Below are positions 4,589 to 42,881 of a stretch of 64,000 bases of DNA, piece by piece (positions within the stretch are counted from its first letter, which is position 1; every line of letters starts with the position of its first letter). Source of the DNA: an uncultured Clostridia bacterium (GTDB lineage Bacteria; Bacillota; Clostridia; Christensenellales; Borkfalkiaceae); assembly GCA_947632195.1 (NCBI GenBank), contig CANROE010000001.1:1-64000 (forward strand), written 5' to 3'. The notes under the pieces are model-generated. The model searched no databases. It was not told the origin of the DNA and saw only the letters and a list, made by a program, of their open reading frames with translations. Made by a program: the position numbers and the translations under genes.

Positions 4589-5707
4589 TTATGCTTTTTC
4601 CTCTTTCGCCTTTTCAAAAAACAGAAATTCGTTGAGCGCCCACGCGCCGAGGAAAAGCGTGAGTGGCAAAATGCCTTTTCGGATCAAGGTAAACCAACTC
4701 GACAAGGTTTCGGCGTCGAAACTGACTCCTTTCCCCGTCAACATCACTTCAAAAATCAAAGTGGCAAGCATCAGGATGAGCGCAAACCCTACTCCCGTAA
4801 AAAGCGGTTTATAAATTTGTTTGCCGCGCAAAGAGATTCCGATGAAATTATGGATCGCAAAGAGCAAGGGGATCATGAGCACCATAAAGAGCAGCGGCCC
4901 GAGAACATAACTGTAAAGCAAATAAAAGATCCCTTGCGCCGTGTACTCTTTTACAAACATTGCGCCTCGGAAAAGCATCGACATGCCGTCGATAAAGGTT
5001 TCAAACGAACTTTGGTGCATAAACCCGATGAACATGCAGATACACCCGAACGATACGGCGTCTTTGAGCGTTTTTAAGACCAACGCCGATTTTGACGCCG
5101 AACTGTTTCTTCTCTGATAAAAACCGCGCACGACAAAGACCAGCGCCCCATAAACGAATAACGCGATCATTGCGCCCCCGATTTCATAGGCATGCACAAG
5201 TTGCGAAAGGATATCGTAGATACACACAAGTTCAAACGCCATAAAGGCATTTTTTGTGATCCGATAGACGCGACGGTTTTTCAGCGATTGAACATCGACG
5301 AATGTCGTTTCGTCTTTATACTCCTTCTTGCCAAACAGGCGCGCCGTTGCACGCACAGATGTGACAATGTCTTTGATGAACTTCGGCAAAAAACCGATAT
5401 AGAGCGCGCTCAAAATTACCGACATAATGCAGCGATACGCAACCGCAGAATTGAAGTCAAACAGTTCGATGATACTTTCGATCACCGCAACGACGGTCGC
5501 GTTTTTATCGAAGATCCGCAGCGCACCCGCCAAATAAAGAACAAATGCAAAGAGTTGCAGAGTAAGGCAAAGGATCACCGTCGCTACCGTCAAAAGTTTG
5601 TCGGCGAAACCTTTTCCCGTGTTCTGCATTTCGACGGTCTCCTGTTCTTGCGAAACCGCCTCTTGTTGGGAAGTCTCTTCCGATTTTATCAATTCGTCGT
5701 TTTCCAT
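4589..5707 (-). CDS. Polytopic membrane protein of unknown function
   Basis: The 372-residue product has an acidic, Gln/Glu-rich N-terminal 30 residues and then about eight hydrophobic segments (near residues 40-65, 95-115, 155-175, 180-200, 220-240, 265-290, 300-320, 345-365). No enzymatic motif is visible and I do not recognise a family. It has a good AGGAG upstream and follows the exported-protein gene at 5724-6770 after a 16-base gap, so the two are probably one operon with shared function at the membrane. Confidence 0.65.
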   Translation of the reverse strand: MENDELIKSEETSQQEAVSQEQETVEMQNTGKGFADKLLTVATVILCLTLQLFAFVLYLAGALRIFDKNATVVAVIESIIELFDFNSAVAYRCIMSVILSALYIGFLPKFIKDIVTSVRATARLFGKKEYKDETTFVDVQSLKNRRVYRITKNAFMAFELVCIYDILSQLVHAYEIGGAMIALFVYGALVFVVRGFYQRRNSSASKSALVLKTLKDAVSFGCICMFIGFMHQSSFETFIDGMSMLFRGAMFVKEYTAQGIFYLLYSYVLGPLLFMVLMIPLLFAIHNFIGISLRGKQIYKPLFTGVGFALILMLATLIFEVMLTGKGVSFDAETLSSWFTLIRKGILPLTLFLGAWALNEFLFFEKAKEEKA

Positions 5708-20012: not shown

Positions 20013-21023
20013 TTGCGTAAGCTGAAATTTTATATTGCCGCGCTCGCGCTTGCGCTCTGCTGCGTGTTCTTTCCGCAACAGGCGGTCACGGCGGACGCGG
20101 CGGGCGGAAAATATTACTTGGGCGGCATGACTGCGGGGTTTATGCTCGGCGCGGGCGGCGCCGAGATCATCGATCTGAGCGAAGTCAACGCGGAGGACGG
20201 CGTTCACCGTCCTGCCGAGGAGGCGGGGCTGAAAACGGGCGACTGTATCTGCGCCGTCAACGGGAAACAGATCAAGACCATCAAGGAACTGAATGAGGCG
20301 CTCGCGGCATGCGGCGGAAAGGAAGTCACCCTCATGGTGCGGAGAAACGGTGAGACTGCCGAAGTGCCCGTTCTCCCCGTAAAGGAGAAAAAGAGCGGAA
20401 AATATAAGATCGGCGTGCTCATTAGGGATACGCTTTCGGGGATCGGGACGGTCACATTCATCGACAAAGAGACGGGACGTTTCGGCGCGCTGGGGCATAA
20501 AGTTGCCGACGAGGGCAACCGCCTGCTCGAAATTTCGGACAGCAAGGTGTATTTGTGCAGTATCGTCGGGGTGAATAAGGGCACGCGCGGGAAGGCGGGG
20601 GAGTTGCGCGGCCTCTTCCTCAACGACAAGGCGATCGCCCGCGCCGAGAAAGTTTGCGCTACGGGGCTCTACGGAAAATTTGAAAATTACGACTATTCCC
20701 GCTGTACGCTCGTAGATATTGCGCCCCTTGCGCAGGCGACCATCGGCAAGGCGATCATCTATTCCACCGTGGACGGGACCTGTCCGCAGCCGTATGAGAT
20801 CGCGATCGCAAAAGTGGACGAGGGAAACCGTGAGAACAAGAACTTCGTCATCAAGGTGACGGATGAAAAGCTCATCGAAGAGACGGGCGGGATCGTGCAG
20901 GGCATGAGCGGCAGTCCCATCGTGCAGAACGGAAAGCTCATCGGCGCGGTCACCCATGTATTTCTCAACGACCCGACGCGGGGATATGGCATTGGCATTG
21001 AGAAAATGATTGAGGAAAAATAA
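20013..21023 (+). CDS. spoIVB: SpoIVB serine peptidase (S55)
   Basis: The 336-residue forespore-secreted protease signals activation of pro-sigma-K in the mother cell. It has a signal/anchor helix (about 4-25), a PDZ domain (about 55-120, AGLKTGDCICAVNGKQI) and the S55 domain with FGALGHKV and the catalytic-serine motif GMSGSP (297-302). TTG 20013 is the start, with GGAGG at the right distance. It is shorter than the B. subtilis protein. Its last codons (RGYGIGIEKMIEEK) recur at 26145 and 29088, bounding two downstream accessory cassettes. Confidence 0.93.
   Translation: MRKLKFYIAALALALCCVFFPQQAVTADAAGGKYYLGGMTAGFMLGAGGAEIIDLSEVNAEDGVHRPAEEAGLKTGDCICAVNGKQIKTIKELNEALAACGGKEVTLMVRRNGETAEVPVLPVKEKKSGKYKIGVLIRDTLSGIGTVTFIDKETGRFGALGHKVADEGNRLLEISDSKVYLCSIVGVNKGTRGKAGELRGLFLNDKAIARAEKVCATGLYGKFENYDYSRCTLVDIAPLAQATIGKAIIYSTVDGTCPQPYEIAIAKVDEGNRENKNFVIKVTDEKLIEETGGIVQGMSGSPIVQNGKLIGAVTHVFLNDPTRGYGIGIEKMIEEK
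20982..21010 (+). repeat. spoIVB 3'-end repeat, copy A (in the intact gene)
   Basis: This 29-base core encodes GYGIGIEKMI. It matches copy C (29088-29116) at 27 and copy B (26145-26173) at 25 of 29 positions, mostly synonymous third-base changes. Similarity to copy B extends about 70 bases further through the stop codon and terminator. Confidence 0.85.
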
Positions 21024-21048
21024 ATAAAAAAGCGTTTTCAAATGGGAA

Positions 21049-21083
21049 AACGGCAGCGGCGAGGGAATTTCCCTCGCCGCTGC
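21049..21083. terminator. Terminator after spoIVB and the alcohol dehydrogenase gene
   Basis: Arms 21053-21067 and 21069-21083 are perfectly complementary (GCAGCGGCGAGGGAA). T-rich flanks on the minus-strand side suit termination of the gene ending at 21088. A near copy lies at 26212-26250. Confidence 0.7.
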
Positions 21084-21087
21084 TGTA

Positions 21088-22356
21088 TCATTTTGCCGTT
21101 TCGCCGATGTTCCCGCCGCACAACTTCCTGTACATCGCTTTGAGTTTTTCTTTCCCCCATAAGACGGGGACGGGATAGAGCGGATTTGCCTCTTTTTCGG
21201 CGTAAGACGCAAGTTCTTCAATATCGTCGCGGCGAATTTCAGGAAAGGTACTGCCGATCCCGAATGCGGCGTTCATTGCCTCGATTTTTCCGATCACGGC
21301 CTCCGCTCCCTGCTCATAGGACGCATTCTTGTCTACAAGCACGCAGAAAAGGGCGATTTTCCATAGCTTTTTATGAACGGCTTTGCCGTATTCCCGCAAT
21401 ACGACAGGCAGGATCACCGCGTTGGCAAGCCCGTGCGCGATGTTGTATTTTCCGCCGAGCGGGTGCGCAAGCGCGTGAACATAACCGACATACGCTTTGC
21501 TGAACGCTCTCCCCGCCTTGTGCGACGCGAAAAGCATTGCCTTTGCCGCCGCCCTGTCGCCGCCATAGGACTTTTCGAGGTTTTCAAATACGAGCTTGAT
21601 CGCCTCCAAAGCGTCTTTGCGCGTCCCTTTGTTTCCGCCTCTGCCGATATACGCCTCGATCGCATGGGTGAGCGCGTCCATGCCCGTTGTTGCGATAATG
21701 TGTTTGGGAAGCGACGCGGTCAGACTTTCATCCAAAACGGCGTAAGAAGGAATGAGCGGGAAGTCGTTGATCGCATATTTGTGGTGCGTGACAGAATCGA
21801 CAACGACTGCGGCAAGCGTCGTTTCGCTTCCCGTCCCCGCCGTCGTGGGAACGGCAACAAGCAAGGGAATTGCCTTTCGCACCTTCAAAATTCCGCTCAT
21901 TTTCCCGAGCGTTTTTGTGGGACGGGCGACAAGAGCGCCGACGCATTTCGCACAGTCCATGGGCGAGCCGCCGCCGAACCCTATCAGACAGTCGCAGCCC
22001 TCGCTCCTATAAATTTTTAACGCTTCCTCGGCGTTGTCCGTCGTGGGATTGGCAACTACGCCGCTATAAACGGAGCAAGCAACCCCCGCCTCCTTCAAGG
22101 CATTTTGGAGCGGCTGCGTAAGTCCGAGTTCGTAAATTGTCTTGTCGGTAACGATCAGAGCGTGCGTTTTTCCGTTGGACCGCAAAACCGACGGCACTTC
22201 GGTTATCTTTTCGATAATTTTAGGGTCTTTATAGGGCAACAGCGGGAGAGCAAGTTTCAGCACCCCCTGAAAAATACGGCAATACAGTCTTTTGAAGAAG
22301 TTGACGCCTTTTTCGGCGCGCGGGATCCGCGAAAATAGATAAACGGGCTTTTTCAT
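21088..22356 (-). CDS. Iron-containing alcohol dehydrogenase (group III)
   Basis: The 422-residue protein has the NAD-binding GFGGGSPMDCAK motif (about 127-138), TTAGTGSETT (about 170-180), and the metal-binding region with KHIIATTGMDALTHAIEAY and GYVHALAHPLGGKYNIAHG. It would interconvert an alcohol and aldehyde or ketone; substrate unknown. The start region is a 19-base tandem duplication so that a four-codon M-K-K-P-stop frame precedes the true start. A strong promoter lies at 22404-22432. It is on the opposite strand to the sugar transporter and within the cassette bounded by spoIVB repeats. Confidence 0.88.
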   Translation of the reverse strand: MKKPVYLFSRIPRAEKGVNFFKRLYCRIFQGVLKLALPLLPYKDPKIIEKITEVPSVLRSNGKTHALIVTDKTIYELGLTQPLQNALKEAGVACSVYSGVVANPTTDNAEEALKIYRSEGCDCLIGFGGGSPMDCAKCVGALVARPTKTLGKMSGILKVRKAIPLLVAVPTTAGTGSETTLAAVVVDSVTHHKYAINDFPLIPSYAVLDESLTASLPKHIIATTGMDALTHAIEAYIGRGGNKGTRKDALEAIKLVFENLEKSYGGDRAAAKAMLFASHKAGRAFSKAYVGYVHALAHPLGGKYNIAHGLANAVILPVVLREYGKAVHKKLWKIALFCVLVDKNASYEQGAEAVIGKIEAMNAAFGIGSTFPEIRRDDIEELASYAEKEANPLYPVPVLWGKEKLKAMYRKLCGGNIGETAK

Positions 22357-22383
22357 TTTTCTATGGCTTTTTCATTTTTCTAT
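22346..22383 (-). repeat. 19-bp tandem duplication of the start region
   Basis: 22346-22364 and 22365-22383 are identical. Each contains ATGAAAAAGCC on the minus strand; the upstream copy reads ATG AAA AAG CCA TAG. Confidence 0.85.
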
Positions 22384-22404
22384 TCGTCGATTGGTCAACG
22401 AATA
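22381..22404. promoter_or_regulatory. Possible operator of the alcohol dehydrogenase gene
   Basis: TATTCGT (22381-22387) and ACGAATA (22398-22404) are 7-base inverted repeats spaced by 10 bases, covering the predicted transcription start. A repressor site is inferred from position only. Confidence 0.35.
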
Positions 22405-22432
22405 GTATATCTGTCTTCGATCGCTTTGTCAA
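22404..22432 (-). promoter_or_regulatory. Vegetative promoter of the alcohol dehydrogenase gene
   Basis: On the minus strand TTGACA (22432-22427), 17-base spacer, TATACT (22409-22404). Confidence 0.8.
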
Positions 22433-22484
22433 CTGATTTATTCGGGAGGGGCTTTATGGGAAAAGAAACATGCCGATAGAAGGC

Positions 22485-22513
22485 TTGACAAAAAAATTAC
22501 CAATATATATAAT
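22485..22513 (+). promoter_or_regulatory. Vegetative promoter of the sugar ABC importer operon
   Basis: Consensus TTGACA (22485-22490), 17-base spacer, consensus TATAAT (22508-22513). Leader of about 75 bases to the ATG at 22597. Confidence 0.85.
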
Positions 22514-22596
22514 AAAACACGATCGAGTGAGGAACTTAAATCATGATTTGATGGTCTGTAAAAGTATAACAAGATAATACGAAAGAGGATCGAGAA

Positions 22597-24333
22597 ATGA
22601 CGAAGGTTTACGAGAAAAACGGGAAGAGAAAAAATGCAATGAAAACGGCCATGGGAATTTTTTGCGCTCTGGCGCTGACGCTCGCGAGCGCCGTAGGCTG
22701 CGGCGGAAATAGCGGGATCGACCCGAACAGAGCACAACTCTATGTGTCGAGTTATGAAGGCGGTTTCGGCAACGATTGGCTGAAAGCAGTCGCCGCGCGT
22801 TTCGAGGAGGAGAATGCCGAAAACAGCTTTCTCCCCGGCAAGACGGGCGTGCAGATCGTGATCGACGGCAATAAAAAGAGCGGTCAAACTTTGCTCGCCA
22901 ACATGGATGCCTATCCGCAGGACCTCTTTTTTACCGAGCGCGGCTACTATTACGACGGCGTCTTTCAAGGGCAGTACCTCGACATCACCGACGCCGTAAA
23001 AGAAGATCTCTCCGAATACGGCGAAGAGGGGAGCATCTTCGACAAATTCAACGACGCGCAGAAGAGCTACTTCGAGCATGACGGCAAGATCTATGCGGTC
23101 CCGCACTACGCCTCCTATTTCGGGCTCTCCTACGACATCGATCTCTTCGAGCGGGAAAACCTCTATTTCGCGCGAGAGGGCGGGGAGGGGAGGTTTGTAC
23201 AGAGCGCAGAGCAGCTGCGTTCTTTGGGCCCCGACGGAAAAACAGGAAAAGAGGGGGACATCGACTACTCGGCAGACGACGGACTTCCCGCGACCTACGA
23301 CGAGTTCTTCGAGCTATGCGATCATATGCTCGAAAAGGGCATTACGCCGCTCACCTATGCGGGAGAGACGCGCAAAGTCTATTTGAACAGTTTTCTGACG
23401 GCCCTCTATGCCGATGCCGAAGGAGAGGAACAGATGGCGCTCAACTATTCCTTTAACGGGTTAGCGGACGATCTCGTGAACGACTTTCAAGTGGACGCCT
23501 CGGGAAAGATACTCTCGCTCTCCCTGGCAGAGCCGACCGAGATCGGACAAAGTTCCGGCTGGAAACTCATCCGCCAAGCGGGGCGCGCCTATGCGCTGAG
23601 TTTTCTGGACCGCCTCGCCTCCGACGAGCGGTATCTCCACGCGGACGCAAAGAACGACGCCTGCTCTCACACCGAGGCGCAGTACGGGTTCCTCGAAAGC
23701 AGCTTTACAGACGCTCCCATCGGGTTTTTCATCGACGGCATCTATTGGGAGAACGAGGCGGAAGCCTCGGGGAGCTTTGCCATGCTCGCGGAAGAGTACG
23801 GGGAAAGGGCGCTCCGCAAAAACCGCAGGCTGGGCTTTCTCCCTCTTCCCAAGGCGGATGACGGCCACCTGGGCTCCACAACGCTACTCGATAACCTTTA
23901 CAGTCTCGCTTTCATCAATGCAAAGATCGACCCCGCGAAGATCCCGCTTGCCAAAGCCTTCCTGCGCTACTGCTATACCGACCGTTCTCTCGTGGAATTC
24001 ACGGCGATGACGAACACACCGCGTTCCCTCCGCTATGAAATGCCCGAAAGCGAACTCAAAAAGATGACATCCTTCGGCAGTTCCGTTCTGTCGCTGAAAA
24101 ACAAAGGGGACACCGCAGTCGTCTATCCGTTCGATACGGATCCGCTCTATCTCAACCATCAATCCGATTTCAATCTCGACAAACGTTGGAGCGCGGTCAT
24201 CGGCGGGCTCTCCGAGAGTTGTCCCATCGATCGTTTCCGCAATGGCGTCTCCGCCGCAGAGTACTTCGCGGGGATGGAAGAGCAATATTCGGCGTCCTCA
24301 TGGGAGGCATTGTATGGCGTCCATTTCCAATGA
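22597..24333 (+). CDS. ABC transporter extracellular solute-binding lipoprotein
   Basis: The 578-residue protein has a basic start, a hydrophobic signal (about 16-34) and a lipobox ending at Cys35 (SAVGC). The rest resembles large family 1 sugar-binding proteins of oligosaccharide importers (LPATYDEFFELCDHMLEKGITPLTY and a C-terminal AKAFLRYCYTD segment). It should deliver a sugar to the permease pair encoded next. AGAGGA precedes ATG 22597. The ligand is not evident. Confidence 0.85.
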   Translation: MTKVYEKNGKRKNAMKTAMGIFCALALTLASAVGCGGNSGIDPNRAQLYVSSYEGGFGNDWLKAVAARFEEENAENSFLPGKTGVQIVIDGNKKSGQTLLANMDAYPQDLFFTERGYYYDGVFQGQYLDITDAVKEDLSEYGEEGSIFDKFNDAQKSYFEHDGKIYAVPHYASYFGLSYDIDLFERENLYFAREGGEGRFVQSAEQLRSLGPDGKTGKEGDIDYSADDGLPATYDEFFELCDHMLEKGITPLTYAGETRKVYLNSFLTALYADAEGEEQMALNYSFNGLADDLVNDFQVDASGKILSLSLAEPTEIGQSSGWKLIRQAGRAYALSFLDRLASDERYLHADAKNDACSHTEAQYGFLESSFTDAPIGFFIDGIYWENEAEASGSFAMLAEEYGERALRKNRRLGFLPLPKADDGHLGSTTLLDNLYSLAFINAKIDPAKIPLAKAFLRYCYTDRSLVEFTAMTNTPRSLRYEMPESELKKMTSFGSSVLSLKNKGDTAVVYPFDTDPLYLNHQSDFNLDKRWSAVIGGLSESCPIDRFRNGVSAAEYFAGMEEQYSASSWEALYGVHFQ

Positions 24334-25231
24334 GCGGAAGGGGAGGGGCGCGCTGCGCAGAAAGAGGCGCAACGACCTGATCTTCTATGGGGCAATGCTT
24401 GCCTTTCCGCTCATACAATTTGCGATCTTCTACATAGCGGTCAATGTCAATTCCCTCGTCATGGCGTTTGAACGTTACGACTACTCCACGGGGGAGACTT
24501 CCTTCGCGGGGTTTGCACAATTCGGGCAGGCGCTCTATCTCCTGTTCCGCTCTCCCGAACTCTCCGCCGCATGGAAAAATACCTTACTCCTCTTTGTCTT
24601 TTCCCTGATCGGAGATGGGCTCGGCGTATTGTTCTCCTATTATATCGCCAAGAAAAAGCCGCTTGCAACTCTCTTGAAGATCGGTATCGTGTTGCCCACG
24701 CTCCTTTCCGCCATCGCAATGGCGGTGCTCTTCAAGTACTTCGGCGAACGCGCTTTTCCCGTTCTCTTTCATACGGAAGGGCTCTTTTCGGGCGGGGGCG
24801 TGCTGTTCGTTCTGCTCTTCTATCATATCTGGATGGGGCTTGGGACGAGCGTTCTCGTGTTAACGGGTGCGATGAGCGCGATCCCGAAGTCTCTTTCGGA
24901 GGCGGCAAAACTGGACGGCTGCACCTTTATGAAAGAGCTCTTCTATATCACGCTGCCCATGATCTATCCCACGCTCGTCACCTTTTTCGTGATCGACGTT
25001 GCGGGGCTCTTCGTCGGGCAGATGGGGCTCTATCACTTCTTTGCGGATGAGGCCGATCCCGCGCTCTATACCTACGGATACTATCTCTTCCGCGAGGCGC
25101 GGAGCGCCACGCTTGCCGAATATCCCGTGCTTGCCGCGATGGGCGCGCTCTTCACACTCGTCACCGCGCCCCTTGCGCTCCTTTCAAAAAAACTATTGAT
25201 CCGCTTGGGTCCTTCGGAAGAATCAGTATGA
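24314..25231 (+). CDS. Sugar ABC transporter permease, MalF/UgpA type
   Basis: The 305-residue protein has six predicted membrane helices and the EAA loop EAAKLDGCTFMKELFYITLP that contacts the ATPase. ATG 24314 with GGGAGG at 24302 is chosen; it overlaps the end of the binding-protein gene by 20 bases. It forms the channel with the next gene. Confidence 0.9.
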   Translation: MASISNERKGRGALRRKRRNDLIFYGAMLAFPLIQFAIFYIAVNVNSLVMAFERYDYSTGETSFAGFAQFGQALYLLFRSPELSAAWKNTLLLFVFSLIGDGLGVLFSYYIAKKKPLATLLKIGIVLPTLLSAIAMAVLFKYFGERAFPVLFHTEGLFSGGGVLFVLLFYHIWMGLGTSVLVLTGAMSAIPKSLSEAAKLDGCTFMKELFYITLPMIYPTLVTFFVIDVAGLFVGQMGLYHFFADEADPALYTYGYYLFREARSATLAEYPVLAAMGALFTLVTAPLALLSKKLLIRLGPSEESV

Positions 25232-26118
25232 AAAATTTCGGGGAAAAAGTCAAAAAAAGTGTGAGCGGGCTGCCTGCATTTCTCCTTTTCTTGCTCATGG
25301 CGGCATACTTTTTGCTCGTCCTGTTTTTGCTGCTTTGGGGGCTGTCCGTTTCCTTGAAATCCGTCGCCCAATTCCGCGCTTCTCCACTTGGCTTTCCCGA
25401 GGGGGAATGGCATTTTGAAAATTATCTCAACGCCTTTAAGACCTTCAACGTGCCCCTCCACGGCGGAAGGGTGGAAATAGGCTTGCTCGCGCAATACGGC
25501 TATTCCTTGCTCTATGCGGCAGGCGGAGCGTTTTTCGGGACGCTCGTGCCCTGCATCACGGCATACGTCACCGCAAAATTTCCCTTCCGTTTCGGAAAGC
25601 TCGTCTATGCGATCGTCGTTGTCGCGCTCGGTTTTCCCATTGTCGGCGCGCTCCCGTCCCAACTGCGGCTGATGTCCTTCCTCGGCCTCTACGATTCCTT
25701 CTTCGGCGTTTGGCTCATGCAGGCGAGTTTTCTCGGCATTTACTTTCTCATCTTCCATGCGGCCTATGCGGGAGCACCCAAAGACATCGCGGAAGCCGCC
25801 GAGATGGACGGGGCGGGGAATTTGCGCATCTTTCTCGAAATCGCGCTTCCGCTTTCGGGAAAACTCTTCTTCACCGTCATGCTCATCAAGTTTATCGGCT
25901 ATTGGAACGACTATCAAACGCCGATGCTCTTTCTGCCCTCCTTCCCGACGGCGGCATACGGCATGTACTATTTCTTCTTTGACACGCGGACGACTTCGGC
26001 ATGGCCGACCATGAAGATCGCGGGAGCGATCCTGTTGCTTGCTCCCGTCTTCGTCATCTTCCTCTGTTTTCAAAAGAGGCTCGTGGGCGATCTCATGCTC
26101 GGCGGGATCAAGGAATAG
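25228..26118 (+). CDS. Sugar ABC transporter permease, MalG/UgpE type
   Basis: The 296-residue protein has six membrane helices and the EAA loop EAAEMDGAGNLRIFLEIALP. It overlaps the first permease by four bases (ATGA). No ATPase gene follows, so a shared MsiK-type ATPase encoded elsewhere is presumed. The spoIVB 3'-end repeat (copy B) begins 26 bases after the stop. Confidence 0.9.
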   Translation: MKNFGEKVKKSVSGLPAFLLFLLMAAYFLLVLFLLLWGLSVSLKSVAQFRASPLGFPEGEWHFENYLNAFKTFNVPLHGGRVEIGLLAQYGYSLLYAAGGAFFGTLVPCITAYVTAKFPFRFGKLVYAIVVVALGFPIVGALPSQLRLMSFLGLYDSFFGVWLMQASFLGIYFLIFHAAYAGAPKDIAEAAEMDGAGNLRIFLEIALPLSGKLFFTVMLIKFIGYWNDYQTPMLFLPSFPTAAYGMYYFFFDTRTTSAWPTMKIAGAILLLAPVFVIFLCFQKRLVGDLMLGGIKE

Positions 26119-26139
26119 GGAAGGATTACATCGACCCGA

Positions 26140-26187
26140 TGAGAGGATATGGCATCGGTATTGAAAAGATGATTGAAGAAAAATAAT
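26140..26187 (+). pseudogene. Detached 3' end of spoIVB
   Basis: An in-frame RGYGIGIEKMIEEK followed by TAA, identical in residues to the end of intact SpoIVB but differing at several third positions. It lacks any start or upstream coding part. Confidence 0.7.
26145..26173 (+). repeat. spoIVB 3'-end repeat, copy B
   Basis: Encodes GYGIGIEKMI and is preceded by DPMR where intact spoIVB has DPTR, then continues EEK-stop. It is a detached gene end, 26 bases beyond the permease stop, followed by a terminator nearly identical to that of spoIVB. Confidence 0.85.
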
Positions 26188-26211
26188 TAAAAAATTATTT
26201 TCCGGCAGGAA

Positions 26212-26250
26212 AACGGCAGCGGCGAGGGAAGTTCCCTCGCCGCTGCCGTT
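26212..26250. terminator. Terminator between the permease and histidine kinase genes
   Basis: Perfect 19-base arms (26212-26230 and 26232-26250) around one base. The stem core is the same as at 21053-21083. It can serve both converging transcripts. Confidence 0.75.
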
Positions 26251-26275
26251 TATCAAAAAATAAGAAAGTATACCA

Positions 26276-28297
26276 TTATGCAAGAGGGAGAGTGGCGGAA
26301 AAGACGGTCATGTTGTCTCTGCGATCATACGTCAATTCGCCGTGCATCGCCTCGACCGCATTTCTTGCCAGAAAGAGGCCAAGCCCCGAATTATTTTCGG
26401 AGGGTTTGCCCGAAACGAAGGGGGCAAAGACGTTTTGCTCGGTCGCAATGCCCCGTCCGTCGTCGATGACTTCGAGGCGGCAAATTCCTTTGCGCTTGGT
26501 GGCCGTCACGGATAAATGGGAACAATACGAGTGTTCGATGGCGTTCATGACCAAATTGAAGATCACGCTCTCCAAGGCAACTTTTTTGGCGTACACATTC
26601 AAGGTTTCGGACAAAGTGACCGTCAAGATCATTCCGTTCGCTTCGCAATCGGGGCGCAGATCGTCCGTCACGCTTTGCACGATTTTACTCAAATTTACCA
26701 CTTCGGACTGCTCCGCAACGTAGTTCTGCTTGCCGTACTTCCCGATCTCGGCAAAGTCTTTTTTGAGCTCGGCGTTTTTTTGCAGTAAAGAATCTACCTT
26801 TGAAATCAATTCGGGGGCAGAGAGATTTTGCCTTAGCTCGGTCAAAGAATTGTTCATACCGACGACGGTTTTTTTCATGTCATGGCTGACATACAGCAAA
26901 ATATTGTCCCGCTCGGCAAGAATATTCTGCAAGCTCTGCGTCTGCCGTTCCACTTCCCGTTCGAGGTTGGTGGTGAGATATCGGTTGTGTATTTCGGCAA
27001 CGATAAATTCGCGCAGTCCCAAAACGAGGGTAACGCCCAGCTCCCCGAGGTACAGCCAAAAGGAGGGGGAGAGCATGATGAACGGAATGGGTTGGTCGGC
27101 AAACAGCGCCGTTACGGTAGCAACGCCCGCGATGACGGTATTCAGCCTAAGTCCCAACGGCTTATTGTTGTATACATCGCGTATGGTAGATGCGAAGATA
27201 ACAGCAATGCAGAGGAACACCAACACGATATAAGAATAGCACACTGCGGTGTAAGCAGTAACGCCCGTGCAGAAGGGGGACAGGAAAGCAAGCACGGTCG
27301 CGATAAGTGTGACGGCGCATGTCGGATACAGAACGGGGACCTTTCCGATCTTCTTGGGAAGATACAGTGCGGAGGCGAAGAGAACAAAGCCTAAGGAGAA
27401 GCGGCGGATCGCAAGCATCAGATAGGGGACCGTGGTAAACCCGAACAGCGCGTATGTGGAAAACAGCGCCGAGAAAATTCCCGTGGCATACAGAAGCTGC
27501 GGAAGGAAGGGGAACGACCGTTTCAGAATACAGATCAAGAAGAACAGAAGGAGCGTGACTGCCCCGATGATCGCGCCGCTCAAAACGACCGAACGGTTTC
27601 GGCTCACGGCGCTGCGGACCGCCGCGTCCTCACCAATCAAGACGGGCCCCAAAAAGCTCACAAAGTTGTCGCCGGTCGCCTCGTAGTGGATCGTGACTTT
27701 GCATTCCTTGGAATACTTCCCTGCCGTAGAAATGGGGATATCGAGAAACATGGGCTGCGTTGCGGTTTCGTGCGAAACGGCGTCGTCGAACTCGGAGGGG
27801 GAGGAATAATTGAGATAGTAGTTGATGTTATATCGGTCGATCGCGCCAATGTAATCTTCATTTTCGTACTGCACAAACACACTGCACGCAGCAAATATGG
27901 GGGGAAGATACAACGTCAGATGCCAATTCCCGTCAGGCTTTAAGAGGGGCTTCAAGAGGGGATCCAAGCTTTCGCTCTGCGCCCACTCATCCGGTGTAAG
28001 CGTGTCGATATAAAACCGAAACGTTCCCCGCCGTGTAAGCTCTTCACCGTCGTTTTCGTCCGAAACGACTTCGTTCAGCCCCGCAAATTCATTGGGAAGA
28101 TAGTTGAACGCCGTCAGCTCCATCACGCCGTGCACGTCCAGAATAGAAACGGCGTTGACCGAGGCGCCCGAAACTTCCTTTTTTCGGGTGGGCGCGTCCG
28201 CGATGGCGCCGTCTCTTGTAAACAGTAAAATCAGCGAAAACGCCACGCAGAGCACAAACAGCTCCACCAAAACGAGCACGTTCCCGATCTTTTTCAT
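26276..28297 (-). CDS. Membrane sensor histidine kinase with 7TMR-DISM-like sensor
   Basis: The 673-residue kinase has an N-terminal helix (about 6-27), an extracytoplasmic beta-rich domain (30-235), a block of about seven membrane helices (238-430) and a cytoplasmic kinase core with phospho-acceptor His472 (YVSHDMKKT), N box NLVMNAIEHS, DDGRGIA and SGLGLFLARN. The layout is that of 7TMR-DISM sensors, which often sense carbohydrates. Start 28297 (GGGAGAA upstream) overlaps the regulator stop as ATGA. It may control the adjoining transporter, but that is inference. Confidence 0.87.
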   Translation of the reverse strand: MKKIGNVLVLVELFVLCVAFSLILLFTRDGAIADAPTRKKEVSGASVNAVSILDVHGVMELTAFNYLPNEFAGLNEVVSDENDGEELTRRGTFRFYIDTLTPDEWAQSESLDPLLKPLLKPDGNWHLTLYLPPIFAACSVFVQYENEDYIGAIDRYNINYYLNYSSPSEFDDAVSHETATQPMFLDIPISTAGKYSKECKVTIHYEATGDNFVSFLGPVLIGEDAAVRSAVSRNRSVVLSGAIIGAVTLLLFFLICILKRSFPFLPQLLYATGIFSALFSTYALFGFTTVPYLMLAIRRFSLGFVLFASALYLPKKIGKVPVLYPTCAVTLIATVLAFLSPFCTGVTAYTAVCYSYIVLVFLCIAVIFASTIRDVYNNKPLGLRLNTVIAGVATVTALFADQPIPFIMLSPSFWLYLGELGVTLVLGLREFIVAEIHNRYLTTNLEREVERQTQSLQNILAERDNILLYVSHDMKKTVVGMNNSLTELRQNLSAPELISKVDSLLQKNAELKKDFAEIGKYGKQNYVAEQSEVVNLSKIVQSVTDDLRPDCEANGMILTVTLSETLNVYAKKVALESVIFNLVMNAIEHSYCSHLSVTATKRKGICRLEVIDDGRGIATEQNVFAPFVSGKPSENNSGLGLFLARNAVEAMHGELTYDRRDNMTVFSATLPLA

Positions 28298-28971
28298 AAT
28301 ATTTCTCCCGTAAAGCAGTACCCCTTGCTGAACTCGGTGCGGATGACGTCGCTCGCGGGCATGGCGGATTTCAGTTTTCGGCGCAGCGACGATAAATGCG
28401 TTCTTATCACCGTCGTGCCGAGGCTCGGGGCGCACCAAATTTCTTCGTAAATTTCATCCGCAGTAAAATATCTGCCGCGATTCTTGATGAGAAAGAATAA
28501 AATATTGAATTCGGACGGCGTGAGTGAAATAGGCTTGCCCTTATATTTTACGGTGCGCGTGGTTGCGTTTACCGAAAAAGCCCCGAACGTTTCCACCGCG
28601 TCCGCCTTGGGCAAGAGCCTCATCGCAATGTGCACTTCCAAAAGGCGCATGGAGCAGGGCTTCACTACATAGTCGGCTGCGCCCGAGGTGATCCCTTCCA
28701 AAATGGAATCCTCACCGTCCAAGGAGGAGAGGATGATGACGGGAGGCAACGCGGGGAACGCCCGAAAGAGCTCTATTCCCATGCTGTTTTTGAGGATAAG
28801 GTCCAAAACGACCGCGTCAAAAGCTCTTTTCTCTAAGAGCTCGGCGGCTTCCTCCACGTCCGACGCCGTAAAAACGGCATTTGCCGGGGAGAAATAGCCG
28901 ACAATTTCCCGTTTGAGTCTTTCGTCGTCCTCTACAAAGAGCAGCGTTCTGTCGCAAACAGTGTAATTCAT
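28294..28971 (-). CDS. OmpR/PhoB-family response regulator
   Basis: The 225-residue regulator has a receiver domain with acidic pair ED-D (15-17), phospho-acceptor Asp57 in VVLDLIL and the Lys of VVKPCS near 105, then an OmpR-type winged helix (about 130-222, LTPSEFNILFFLIKNRGRYFTADEIYE). It is first in a two-gene operon with its kinase, under the promoter at 29000-29028. Confidence 0.92.
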   Translation of the reverse strand: MNYTVCDRTLLFVEDDERLKREIVGYFSPANAVFTASDVEEAAELLEKRAFDAVVLDLILKNSMGIELFRAFPALPPVIILSSLDGEDSILEGITSGAADYVVKPCSMRLLEVHIAMRLLPKADAVETFGAFSVNATTRTVKYKGKPISLTPSEFNILFFLIKNRGRYFTADEIYEEIWCAPSLGTTVIRTHLSSLRRKLKSAMPASDVIRTEFSKGYCFTGEIL

Positions 28972-28999
28972 ACGCGCGTCCCTATTTTAGAATAGTTTT

Positions 29000-29028
29000 A
29001 TTATACCAAAGAAAAAAATTCTATGCAA
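29000..29028 (-). promoter_or_regulatory. Vegetative promoter of the two-component operon
   Basis: On the minus strand TTGCAT (29028-29023), 17-base spacer, TATAAT (29005-29000). Confidence 0.75.
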
Positions 29029-29087
29029 GTGGGAGAGCCGTCTCCTTCTGAAATATTCGTGTGAAGAATTGTTAAGATTGCGCGTGG

Positions 29088-29116
29088 GGATATGGCATCG
29101 GCATTGAAAAAATGAT
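29088..29116 (+). repeat. spoIVB 3'-end repeat, copy C
   Basis: Encodes GYGIGIEKMI then GE-stop (29126). It lies between the two-component promoter and the spoIIM-like gene, and lacks the terminator found after copies A and B. Confidence 0.8.
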
Positions 29117-29168
29117 AGGGGAATAAACTCGAAGGAAAATCAAGGGAGAGAGGGGCATAAAATGAGGT

Positions 29169-29768
29169 ATGCGCCCTCTTTTTTTTGTGCAGAATACGTT
29201 TTCCCGCGCTTTTTCGCGGAAATGGTGGATGATCCTTTTGATTTTGTTGGTTTTGAGTAGTACTATGTGTGGCATAGTATTTATCAAAACGCCTGCTTTT
29301 TATGAGTTTCACCTCAAACAGTGCGACCGCTTTTTGGACCGCGTCTGCTATTCCGACCGCAACGTCTTTGTCATTTTCCTCGAACGCACGGCCGCGAGCG
29401 CGCTTTTGCTTGCCCTCGTGCTTGCGGGAGGGCTGCACCCCGTATGCCTGCCCATTCCCGTGCTCGTGCTTTTATACCGCTCCTACACCTTCGGGGGGAC
29501 CCTTGCCGTTCTCTTCTCCGTCTATTCTTTCCCAGGGGCGGTCGTCGCCTTTGCGCTCTATCTCCCCGTCCATCTGCTCATAGACGCCATCCTGCTCCTT
29601 GCCGCAGGCGTCTCCTTTTGGCGCGCCTTCTGCTTTTCCTTCTGCGCGGGCGATCTGAAAGAGCTTCTGTTCGATTTTCTCGCCTTCCTTGCCTTTCTTG
29701 CGCTCGTCTGTCTGCTCGAAATGATCCTTCTTCTCGCCCTTTTCCACCCGATGGGGAATCTCCTGTGA
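29169..29768 (+). CDS. Stage II sporulation protein M-like membrane protein
   Basis: The 199-residue protein has five hydrophobic segments and the N-terminal half-gap typical of SpoIIM-family proteins (RAFSRKWWMILLILLVLSS, then extracytoplasmic KTPAFYEFHLKQCD). SpoIIM acts with SpoIID and SpoIIP in septal peptidoglycan thinning. The family match is by pattern and by the sporulation context (spoIVB before, dacF after), so moderately sure. A palindrome copy (29261-29279) encodes STMCGIV in its first membrane segment. Confidence 0.6.
   Translation: MRPLFFVQNTFSRAFSRKWWMILLILLVLSSTMCGIVFIKTPAFYEFHLKQCDRFLDRVCYSDRNVFVIFLERTAASALLLALVLAGGLHPVCLPIPVLVLLYRSYTFGGTLAVLFSVYSFPGAVVAFALYLPVHLLIDAILLLAAGVSFWRAFCFSFCAGDLKELLFDFLAFLAFLALVCLLEMILLLALFHPMGNLL
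29261..29279. repeat. Dispersed palindrome, variant copy in the spoIIM-like gene
   Basis: TACTATG-TGTGG-CATAGTA: 7-base arms around a changed centre. Shares the centre GTGGCATA with the copy at 63648-63670 read on its coding strand. Confidence 0.7.
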
Positions 29769-40564: not shown

Positions 40565-41797
40565 CTAAATCTTGCGGAATTCACGGAACTGTTGCGCATA
40601 AATCGCGGGAATGACGGCAACGATCTCCGTGCCGTCGTCGGTATATTTTACCGACTGTTCGTAACAGAGCGGACGGAGAGCGGAGAATTTTCCCTCCATG
40701 ATGTAGGGAACAAACAGGGTCGCGTGCACAAAATTTTCTTCCAATTCCATAAATATACGTTTTTTGAGGGTATCGAGCCCTCTTTTTTCTTTGGCGGAAA
40801 TGAACACGGCGTCGTGCGGGGCGTCGCTGTCCCGAGACTCTTCAAGATCACACTTATTCATGACAATGAGGTAGGGAGAGGAAAAGTTCATGCCGCGCAG
40901 AGTGTCCAGCGTCGTTGAAAGCTGCGTCTGAAAATCTCCCGTCGCGTCGCAGACGATGAGCGCAAGATCGCAGTGCACGGCGCTTTCGAGGGTCGATTTG
41001 AACGCCTCGATGAGGTTATGCGGCAAATTTTGCAGAAATCCCACGGTGTCGACGAGCAAAAAAGGGACTCCGTCGATCTCGAACGAGCGCGCCGTCGGGT
41101 CGAGCGTCGCAAAAAGGGCGTCCTTCGTCAGCACGTCCGCTCCCGTCAGCGCGTTCATCAGAGTGGACTTCCCCGTGTTCGTGTAGCCGACAAGCGCGAC
41201 CGTAAGCACTTTTTCCTTCTTTCTGCGCTCCACCTGAAAGGCGCGGCGGCGCTCGGTATCCTTTAATTTTTGTTCCAGGGTGTGGATCCGCGCGCGGATA
41301 TGACGGCGGTCGGTTTCAAGCTGCGTTTCCCCCGGGCCGCGCGTTCCGATGCCGCCTCCGAGTCGGGAGAGCGCCTCGCCCTTGCCTTTGAGGCGGGGAT
41401 AGAGATATTTGAGCTGCGCGAGCTCTACCTGCAATTTTCCCTCGCCGCTCTCGGCACGCAGCGCGAAAATATCGAGAATGAGGGTGGTGCGGTCGATGAC
41501 CTTTTTCCCGCCGAGCGCCTTGGAGATGTTCAAAGTTTGGGAAGGGGAGAGCTCACCGTTGAAGAGCACCGTAAGTTCCAGCCCTTCAAGCCGCTCTCTG
41601 AGTTCTTCCAGCTTGCCTTCGCCGATGTAAGTGGCAGGGTTGACTTCGCGCACGTTTTGGTAGATGGTGCCCGCGTACTCCGCGCCCGCGCTCTCAATGA
41701 GCGCCACCGCCTCGTCGTGCAAAATTTTATAATTGTCTCCCTCAATCGGTTGGATAATATACACGATCTCGGGCTTTTTTGCCTGATTATTCGTCAT
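40565..41797 (-). CDS. hflX: Ribosome-associated GTPase HflX
   Basis: The 410-residue GTPase splits stalled ribosomes. The N-terminal nucleotide-binding subdomain, the glycine-rich linker RLGGGIGTRGPGETQLETDRR and G motifs GYTNTGKST, DTVGF and NKCD are intact. Its 5' end overlaps the recombinase gene by 11 bases, so they share a transcript. Confidence 0.95.
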   Translation of the reverse strand: MTNNQAKKPEIVYIIQPIEGDNYKILHDEAVALIESAGAEYAGTIYQNVREVNPATYIGEGKLEELRERLEGLELTVLFNGELSPSQTLNISKALGGKKVIDRTTLILDIFALRAESGEGKLQVELAQLKYLYPRLKGKGEALSRLGGGIGTRGPGETQLETDRRHIRARIHTLEQKLKDTERRRAFQVERRKKEKVLTVALVGYTNTGKSTLMNALTGADVLTKDALFATLDPTARSFEIDGVPFLLVDTVGFLQNLPHNLIEAFKSTLESAVHCDLALIVCDATGDFQTQLSTTLDTLRGMNFSSPYLIVMNKCDLEESRDSDAPHDAVFISAKEKRGLDTLKKRIFMELEENFVHATLFVPYIMEGKFSALRPLCYEQSVKYTDDGTEIVAVIPAIYAQQFREFRKI

Positions 41798-42845
41798 TTT
41801 CGTCCTTTTTGTGCAATTTTACGGCGTTTGCGACCGAGCGGCGGTGGTCCTCTGTGATCGCCGCATAATGTTTCCGCGTCGTATTCACGTCCTTGTGCCC
41901 GAGCACATCAGCCACAATGTAGATGTCGCCCGTCTCGCGGTAGAGGCTGGTGCCGTAGGTGGAGCGCAGCTTGTGCGGCGTGATTTTTTTGAGAGGGGAG
42001 ACGATCTTCGCGTACTTTTTGACGAGATTTTCGACCGCGCGCACGGTGATCCGCTTGTACTGCATGGAGAGAAAGAGGGCATGCTCGTCCTGCGGGATCC
42101 GCTTATCCTCCTGTTTTTGGGCGATATAGGCAGCAAGCGCGTCTCCGACCTCCTCCGAAAAGTACAAAATTGCCTGGTTTCCGCCTTTTCGGGTGACCAA
42201 AAAGGAGTTGTCCGTAAAATTTATGCTTTCATTGTTGAGCCCGACGAGCTCGGAGATACGGATCCCCGTACCCAAAAAGAGGGTCAGAATGGCAATATCG
42301 CGGATCTTCGTCTTTTCGTGATAGCCGTCGGCATGAGAGGGGAGGCCGCTCCCGTCCTCGGCGACGTCCAAAATTGCGGAAACTTCGTCCTCCGCAAGTC
42401 GAATGATCTCTTTTTCGTGCGTTTTTGGCGTGGGGACCTTGGAGGGGTTGTTGACTTCAATGAGCCCCTTGTTAAAAAAGTACTTGAAGAGGGAGCGCAC
42501 GGTGGAGAGCTTGCGTGCCTTGGCGTGCTCGTCGCAGGAGAGCCGCCGCTCGCCGTAAGTATAATTGGAGAGATAACTCAAAAAGTTCTCCATGTCGAGA
42601 TCGGTAACTTGCTCAACATCTTCAAGGGTAAAATCGCGCACCGCCTTGCCGCGAAATTTTTTCTTTGAGAGGAAATCAAAAAAGATGCGCAGATCGTAAC
42701 AATAGTTGAGCCGCGTGAGCGTGCCCGTGCGGCTCTCGACGCCGCGCAGAAAATCTTCGCAGAAGGCGGGCAGGGTTTCAAGCAGCCGGTCGATACGGTC
42801 GAGATTGCGGAGATTGCGTTCCTGGTAATAGTTGTCCGATTTCAT
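41787..42845 (-). CDS. XerS-like tyrosine recombinase
   Basis: The 352-residue recombinase has an N-terminal SAM-like core-binding domain (about 20-130) and a catalytic domain with Arg (GTGIRISELVGL), Lys (TRKGG), His-x-x-Arg (TPHKLRSTYG), His (LGHKDVNTT) and Tyr (KHYA), all present. Length and the pattern ALFLSMQYKRITVRAVENLVKKY resemble XerS (about 356 residues), the single chromosome-dimer recombinase of streptococci, more than XerC/XerD. ATG 42845 is at the predicted transcription start with no ribosome site. A dif-like inverted repeat lies 117-148 bases upstream. An ordinary XerC role is the alternative. Confidence 0.82.
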   Translation of the reverse strand: MKSDNYYQERNLRNLDRIDRLLETLPAFCEDFLRGVESRTGTLTRLNYCYDLRIFFDFLSKKKFRGKAVRDFTLEDVEQVTDLDMENFLSYLSNYTYGERRLSCDEHAKARKLSTVRSLFKYFFNKGLIEVNNPSKVPTPKTHEKEIIRLAEDEVSAILDVAEDGSGLPSHADGYHEKTKIRDIAILTLFLGTGIRISELVGLNNESINFTDNSFLVTRKGGNQAILYFSEEVGDALAAYIAQKQEDKRIPQDEHALFLSMQYKRITVRAVENLVKKYAKIVSPLKKITPHKLRSTYGTSLYRETGDIYIVADVLGHKDVNTTRKHYAAITEDHRRSVANAVKLHKKDENDE

Positions 42846-42851
42846 GTTTTC

Positions 42852-42881
42852 ATTATAGCACACTCGGGGGAGAGATGTCAA
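42852..42881 (-). promoter_or_regulatory. Promoter giving a leaderless recombinase transcript
   Basis: On the minus strand consensus TTGACA (42881-42876), 18-base spacer, consensus TATAAT (42857-42852). Seven bases past the -10 is the A of ATG 42845. Confidence 0.75.

Follow-up and report, generated by a model that had tools for sequence, protein, structure and literature searches.

Gene cassettes at the 3' end of spoIVB, a probable attachment site of a cassette chromosome-like mobile family in Clostridia

We analyzed a 64,000-nucleotide (nt) stretch of DNA (hereafter, the window; GenBank assembly GCA_947632195.1, contig CANROE010000001.1, positions 1 to 64,000) from an uncultured Clostridia bacterium, in which the 3' end of the sporulation gene spoIVB is present three times and bounds two cassettes of accessory genes. 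The source genome is 1.78 Mb in size and about 90% complete (G000; genomes, contigs, and loci are given by our G, C, and L numbers). The spoIVB gene (20013–21023, + strand; SpoIVB peptidase S55 and PDZ, Pfam PF05580, E 1e-68), which serves as the putative attachment gene by its 3' end, has an uninterrupted frame of 336 amino acids (aa) with the S55 domain reaching residue 333. A 29-base piece of its end lies at 20982–21010 (copy A), 26145–26173 (copy B), and 29088–29116 (copy C), all on the + strand. These were the only three copies in the genome when up to 3 mismatches were allowed, and there were no matches in 100 shuffles, confirming an earlier interpretation made from the letters alone (hereafter, the sequence-only reading) in which three spoIVB ends bound two cassettes. 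That reading also held that the copies differ mainly at synonymous positions, and by direct reading every difference within the 29 bases is synonymous. The piece itself is real, although the repeat to which it belongs (T) is longer, about 55–70 nt where it is well kept, with T-H-V as its first codons; the first part is gone from copies B and C.

Copies A and B align over 121 nt (83%; 20966–21086 and 26129–26249), a match that includes the stop codon and a hairpin (the sequence-only reading had B keep the stop and the spoIVB terminator), whereas A and C align over 44 nt only. Copy A of T (20952–21010, +) lies within spoIVB, and its left edge (ACC|CATGT) is the predicted crossover, judging from the arm junctions treated below. 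It is followed by the remainder of a replaced spoIVB tail (MIEEK, compared to MIGE in relatives), the stop, and an intrinsic-terminator-like hairpin (21011–21086, +). Copy B (26129–26251, +) is a truncated T with the same MIEEK tail, a stop, and a terminator-like hairpin of its own; the hairpins 3' of A and B fold far better than their shuffles (z −6.3 and −8.9, respectively). Copy C (29083–29126, +), truncated on its left side, ends in MIGE and a stop as in the relatives G245, G250, G271, and G273, and is followed by a leader and a hairpin with a T-run (29141–29187, +) of the kind that separates spoIVB from the next gene at empty sites. Based on this native-type tail and on what follows it, copy C is the displaced native spoIVB end. 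The next gene (29169–29768, +) is the right-hand core neighbor at the site; its name, spoIIM-like, is the presumptive one of the sequence-only reading and has no Pfam match. The names recN, lysA, scpA, and the like are likewise presumptive labels for synteny, without a Pfam basis.

The cassette between A and B encodes an iron-containing alcohol dehydrogenase (21088–22356, − strand; PF00465, PF25137; the G265 spoIVB array holds a 94% homologue), a 578-aa protein in the place of a binding protein (22597–24333, +; no Pfam match; putatively the extracellular binding component of the importer, with 86–88% homologues in G150, G245, G251, and G264), and two ABC importer permeases of the BPD_transp family (24314–25231 and 25228–26118, both +; PF00528). 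The dehydrogenase and the permeases are as originally described, whereas the specificity for sugar found no support; no ATPase gene of the importer was seen in this cassette. The cassette between B and C holds the expected two-component system, comprising a histidine kinase (26276–28297, −; PF02518; homologues elsewhere than spoIVB in other genomes) and a response regulator (28294–28971, −; PF00072, PF00486). No tyrosine or serine recombinase match was obtained within the stretch from A to C, in line with the earlier statement that neither cassette carries an integrase. Two further features were observed here: a perfect 19-nt tandem repeat (GGCTTTTTCATTTTTCTAT; 22346–22383) across the dehydrogenase gene start, and a perfect sigma-70 consensus promoter (TTGACA-17-TATAAT; 22485–22513) ahead of the importer operon, a near-same sequence of which persists in an emptied importer cassette of G265 (L068, about 13820).

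To determine the occupancy of the site, we compared it among genomes of the same genus. The spoIVB-end pattern matched 91 of 103 genomes, with two or three matches in 11 of these. A total of 88 loci were read, comprising 59 empty sites, 19 occupied sites with both flanks, and 10 that ran off before any core gene. A site was counted as empty when the spoIIM-like gene (44 loci) or dacF (15 loci) came no more than 200 nt after spoIVB; the former are the strains with spoIVB directly ahead of the spoIIM-like gene that the sequence-only reading had suggested looking for. Close relatives are among the empty genomes (G271 and G273, with spoIVB proteins 90% and 87% identical to that of the window), and in two run-off loci that were read further, the spoIIM-like gene appeared after about 17 kb (G265) and 21 kb (G250). 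In a core-protein tree (FastTree, interpreted without branch support values), occupied and empty genomes were interleaved: near G000, the genomes G271 and G273 are empty, and G000, G265, G245, G250, and G150 differ in cargo or its combination. Other cargo between spoIVB-end repeats, which had also been proposed as something to search for, was found in further genomes, and we encountered neither of the outcomes named at the time as adverse (one fixed gene order, or repeats missing at other occupied sites). The classification of G212, G240, and G258 as having no spoIVB was rejected; their right borders lie at contig edges (a recombinase pair in G258, importer permeases in G240).

Cargo was called by Pfam, BLAST, and PADLOC, with Pfam applied to one member per cargo family and the remaining members joined by BLAST. 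Apart from the window cassettes, it includes HipB/HipA (G235, G242, G249, G190), Phd/ParE (G248 and G256, with decayed forms in other genomes), a type I restriction system with an AbiJ-domain protein (G265), GmrSD-type proteins (G253), and VWA-domain and leucine-rich-repeat proteins (G270, with homologues in G263), in units as small as 0.8 kb. General Pfam scans of 46 cargo proteins (6 + 40) showed no conjugation families, the recombinase-bearing elements being scanned for recombinases only. The 578-aa importer protein of the window is present in 5 of the 103 genus genomes, always at spoIVB (in G264 it is split across two contigs, one of which is the spoIVB contig), and its next homologue is only 42% identical. 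G240 is a sixth importer genome, with permeases 88 and 90% identical to those of the window ahead of its right border. Homologues of the two-component system and of HipBA also occur away from the site. Homology of contig C4 of G265 to window positions 26277–29079 is bounded by the B hairpin and copy C, and contig C39 of G256 has a HipBA match without the spoIVB tail and terminator; it thus seems that ordinary loci supplied the cargo modules. Gene order also varies, in that the emptied importer cassette of G265 precedes the dehydrogenase, the reverse of the window. As additional observations on cargo, an array of near-identical repeats (CATCCCGAGCNTGTCGAGGGATCTCCAC) lies soon after the HipBA module of G256 (L168, about 5130–5430), and spoIVB-site cargo of another genus (L188 and L191, from G303 and G064) includes defense-like proteins (OLD/GajA-like ATPase; MkoA-like).

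Some of these cassettes have spread horizontally. For 12 pairs with importer or HipBA cassettes, we compared the cassette to 300 nt on either side, taken from spoIVB just ahead of the repeat and from the start of the spoIIM-like gene (the incomplete G264 and G170 and the Phd/ParE family were left out). Nucleotide identity of the cassette exceeded that of both abutting flanks in 11 of the 12 pairs, by 3.7 to 16.9 points over spoIVB and by 7.7 to 26.0 points over the spoIIM-like gene; the exception was the pair of sister genomes G235 and G242, which are similar throughout. Identities were 84.9–88.8% for the importer gene (spoIVB: 74.4–83.3%; spoIIM-like: 59.7–79.3%) and, except for the sister pair, 84.6–88.6% for HipBA (spoIVB: 71.7–76.3%; spoIIM-like: 63.9–69.7%). 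Because the cassettes are more similar than their flanks, insertion at the site fits these data and transfer of the whole flanking region does not. Among the Phd/ParE cassettes, 4 of 10 pairs stand out (80.2–85.0% vs. 69.4–71.5% for spoIVB), all of them with G261.

Right repeats are preceded directly by a conserved arm, WTATTGACA-N5-YCAYGT, of which YCAYGT belongs to spoIVB. With up to 1 mismatch, the arm was found at 17 of 28 right copies (14/19, and 3/9 further ones), with identical spacing in all 17, including 10 of 10 right copies outside the genus; the count omits G067, at a contig edge, whose sequence shows the arm. It was absent before all 89 left or native spoIVB ends, and the background was 157 of 20000 random stretches. 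HipBA cassettes without recombinases carry it (G235, G242, G249), an importer-type cassette as in the window retains it (G240), and G251 and G248 have apparently shortened forms. Judging from these junctions, the probable crossover point is some 30 nt upstream of the 29-base core. We infer that the window cassettes belong to the same arm-bordered system, and they are probably no longer excisable at their present borders.

Candidate enzymes were found next to the border in five genomes. When 50 selected genomes of the family were searched with a 24-aa query, 11 of 54 matches were orphan copies in frames of 26–63 aa, all starting at V or T of VTHV. Two large serine recombinase genes precede the right repeat in three genomes of one other genus (G110, G184, G344) and one of another (G136), at distances of 0.5 kb (G110, with a small frame between), 1 kb (G184), 9 nt (G344), and 42 nt (G136). 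In G258, from the genus of the window, the pair lies about 0.1 kb before the right copy, and the spoIIM-like gene and a dacF-like frame come next; no other genus locus that was read has the pair. A candidate for the integrase linked to the same core, which the sequence-only reading had proposed to look for elsewhere, was thus found in G258 and four genomes of other genera. The first recombinase is 580–592 aa and the second 568–576 aa in G258, G110, G344, and G136, whereas in G184 the contig breaks off within the first, and the second is a frame of 381 aa. By Pfam, the proteins of G110, G344, and G136 have Resolvase, Recombinase, and zinc-ribbon domains, and the G258 proteins were assigned by BLAST (56–61%). 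First and second recombinases form two clades, with cross-genus identities of about 61–73% and 53–73%, respectively.

More generally, serine recombinases were present in 19 of 26 genomes and were not found in G245, G150, G249, G256, G261, G175, and G117. Because G150, G256, and G175, each at least 93% complete, have occupied sites, retention of a cassette needs no resident enzyme. The window genome has four serine recombinases, none in the cassettes; two of them, located elsewhere, are 45–47% identical to the first member of the pair. These two (G000:C13, L197:1447-3165; G000:C16, L198:1745-3466) lie in units of roughly 2.1 kb with a single large serine recombinase each and 92% DNA identity. 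A phage carrier was not found, given that the spoIVB-end pattern had no matches in viral contigs and that a recognizable spoIVB end was present in none of 80 viral loci with related recombinases (kept from 180).

Left and right copies of the same genome resemble each other, chiefly at synonymous sites. Across 11 loci, the within-genome distance between left and right cores summed to 16, compared to a permuted mean of 51.4 and a minimum of 22 (0 of 20000 permutations). The test included an internal copy for G265 and a locus of another genus (G194). It did not use G190 or G254, in which no right copy fell within 3 mismatches, G270, whose copies sit on other contigs, or copy B of the window. Own left copies were nearest or tied for 9 of 12 right copies, the exceptions being G000 B, G194, and G242. 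The suggestion that the repeat ends came from different strains is thus contradicted. Target-site duplication was dropped as an explanation of this likeness; the border arms point to site-specific insertion, with homogenization as a presumed later step. We infer that within-species homologous recombination later made the left copy host-like: as part of a working gene, it would be overwritten by spoIVB alleles from within the species as far as homology extends.

Taken together, empty and occupied sites, varying cargo, cassettes more similar than their flanks, the recombinase pair, and the arm indicate that spoIVB is very probably an attachment gene. We consider it likely (roughly 80%) that its 3' end is the attachment site of a mobile family like the staphylococcal cassette chromosome (SCC), inserted by paired large serine recombinases, and that the window carries cassettes without recombinases whose right borders have decayed. 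What is observed comprises empty as well as occupied sites, some cassettes that have spread horizontally, a recombinase pair beside the border, and a common arm; the pair presumably performs the insertion reaction and would move recombinase-less cassettes in trans. In the proposed mechanism, the two recombinases, encoded head to tail, would insert elements about 70 nt short of the spoIVB end, with the crossover at the T-H-V codons (ACC|CAYGT). Insertion would split the gene and the element would supply its own last codons, a stop, and usually a terminator; with this element-borne replacement tail, spoIVB would therefore stay intact. The native end would be displaced to the right border and left as an orphan repeat ahead of the spoIIM-like gene. 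Elements could stack, and most units read in the genus lack a recombinase and consist only of cargo between two borders. In the window, a dehydrogenase and importer cassette and a two-component cassette would have been loaded, with later decay of their right borders. This largely supports the sequence-only reading, which saw a cargo-loading site left by repeated integration at the spoIVB end, and missed the place of the crossover, the host-like copies, and the decayed right copies.

Several points weigh against this reading. Neither the recombinase pair nor the arm is present in the window, where B and C are truncated, and only 7 of 18 right copies in the genus of the window keep the arm. In another genus, the G303 and G064 copies have the arm but no recombinase in the stretch read, and the left ends of all five recombinase-bearing elements fall outside the DNA read. 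The likeness of copies within a genome is not expected from a plain exchange of element and host ends in recently transferred cassettes. The other 6 of the 10 Phd/ParE pairs are about as similar as their hosts, which long residence and vertical descent fit equally well. Excision or circles were not observed, and the genomes include metagenome assemblies, in which misassembly of a single locus is possible.

The recombinase-less cassettes could instead have decayed in situ, with full elements arriving and losing their recombinase genes later, without movement in trans. Decay is common at the site, with 0.25-kb leftovers in G246 and G234, Phd/ParE-like DNA in G254, G257, and G261 that no longer has intact frames, a partial HipA in G267, and the emptied importer cassette in G265; moreover, G258 alone has the pair among the genus loci, ten of which ran off and were not read to the right border except in G265 and G250. 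We nevertheless regard this explanation as unlikely, because a compact HipBA layout without recombinases (about 1.6 kb) recurs in G235, G242, G249, and G190, as does the importer in several genomes, and identical deletions arising independently are improbable. In addition, the repeat of G235 begins about 15 nt past the hipA stop, and the recurrent cassettes exceed their flanks in identity.

Spread between strains by homologous recombination in conserved flanks, with the repeats as old scars, would account for host-like left and right copies, for the conserved flanking genes, and for most Phd/ParE pairs being no more similar than their hosts. It is hard to reconcile with flanks at 59.7–83.3% beside importer and HipBA cassettes at 84.6–88.8% in 11 of 12 pairs, or with a fixed arm at the junction, which indicates site-specific joining; we judge it improbable as the general explanation, and such recombination may still be active within species. 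Insertion by a tyrosine recombinase (Xer-like or integron-like) is very improbable. The only tyrosine recombinase match of the genome does sit in the window (41787–42881, 364 aa), about 12 kb past the array, and many relatives have one 11–33 kb from spoIVB on the same contig, but tyrosine recombinases occur in 29 of 30 genomes searched, the one recurring near spoIVB does so regardless of occupancy (relatives without cassettes have it too), and the border arm goes with serine recombinases. A target-duplicating (Cas1-like) integrase that copies the spoIVB end during insertion would explain why both copies are host-like, yet it is scarcely credible given Cas1 in 1 of 26 genomes searched and element-specific tails and arms, by which the joints are something other than simple copies of the target.

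Beyond the spoIVB elements, we scanned named genomes for relatives of the second recombinase. In the best 80 loci of at least 551 relatives, the spoIVB end was recognizable in the fetched flanks of 5, all with the arm (G258, G344, G184, G136, and a further locus, L212); no such end was seen in L211, which is equally close. In 29 of these best 80 loci (between L217 and L271), the recombinase is followed by an orphan 3' part of spoVAD; each of five checked by Pfam covers about positions 201–329 of the family. TTGACA lies within 20 nt before the spoVAD part in 25 of the 29 (random stretches: 157 of 20000). Examples are L218:3733-4128 and L226:4810-5244, the latter locus having HipA between the recombinase and the border. 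Based on these orphan parts and the shared motif, a related lineage seems to use spoVAD, and the loci are possibly an unreported element family. More tentatively, and at somewhat less than even odds, we propose that a lineage of large serine recombinases has specialized on Clostridia sporulation genes, with spoIVB as a docking port for the loading, stacking, and interspecies exchange, in trans, of recombinase-less defense, toxin–antitoxin, and uptake cassettes, and with a wider branch (arm TTGACA-N5-CC) that cuts into spoVAD. If this is true, a single cassette-exchange system, keyed to sporulation genes, is common to spore-formers.

The spoIVB site would give uncultured spore-formers their own cassette chromosome-like system, with a docking gene, a border sequence, and a candidate recombinase pair. 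It would account for a hot spot of toxin–antitoxin, restriction, and transporter genes, and would offer a testable attachment (att) pair from which an integration tool for Clostridia could be developed. Why sporulation genes are the targets (spoIVB here, spoVAD in related elements) is a question that follows from it.

We found no paper that joins spoIVB with an integrase and attachment site or with a (large) serine recombinase, nor one that joins spoVAD with a serine recombinase, in a literature search that mostly did not extend to subscription journals. Known systems share some features with the spoIVB elements. The gin element of Bacillus cereus, a non-phage element in gerE with three recombinase genes (GirA, GirB, GirC), is alike in having several site-specific recombinase genes and a sporulation gene as its site (PMC5595907). 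It differs in that gerE is interrupted and rebuilt during sporulation, whereas spoIVB is intact here and excision is not required. The same contrast holds for skin and SP-beta, other intervening elements of sporulation genes, whose host gene is interrupted until excision. Mobile integron cassette arrays consist of small recombinase-less units in arrays of changed order, and are alike in all three respects (order: G000 vs. G265). In contrast to integrons, the linked enzymes here are large serine recombinases, and there was no sign of IntI (attC was not searched for); no IntI-type gene was found beside the array, the sole tyrosine recombinase of the genome, which was not compared with IntI, lying about 12 kb beyond.

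The staphylococcal and Enterococcus cassette chromosomes (SCC and ECC) have two large serine recombinases, insertion at the 3' end of a conserved core gene, direct-repeat att sites of roughly 50 nt, and highly variable cargo, with a common att core, TATCATAA (PMC6222049). SCC/ECC (CcrAB, 3' region of rlmH) and the spoIVB elements are alike in paired large serine recombinases, use of a core-gene 3' end, direct repeats, and variable cargo; direct repeats derived from the 3' end of the target gene are present here, with spoIVB. The recombinase genes lie near one att site in G258, G110, G184, G344, and G136 but not in the window, and these five pairs are likened to CcrA/CcrB by kind, not by Ccr kinship. 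The systems differ in the target (rlmH there, spoIVB here), in the att core, and in the fact that most occupied loci here lack recombinases and have units down to 0.8 kb. Members without recombinases are also known in SCC (ACME, pseudo-SCC). Because the target and att core differ, we do not claim membership in SCC/ECC; by analogy of organization, the cassette chromosome is the closest working analogue of the spoIVB elements.

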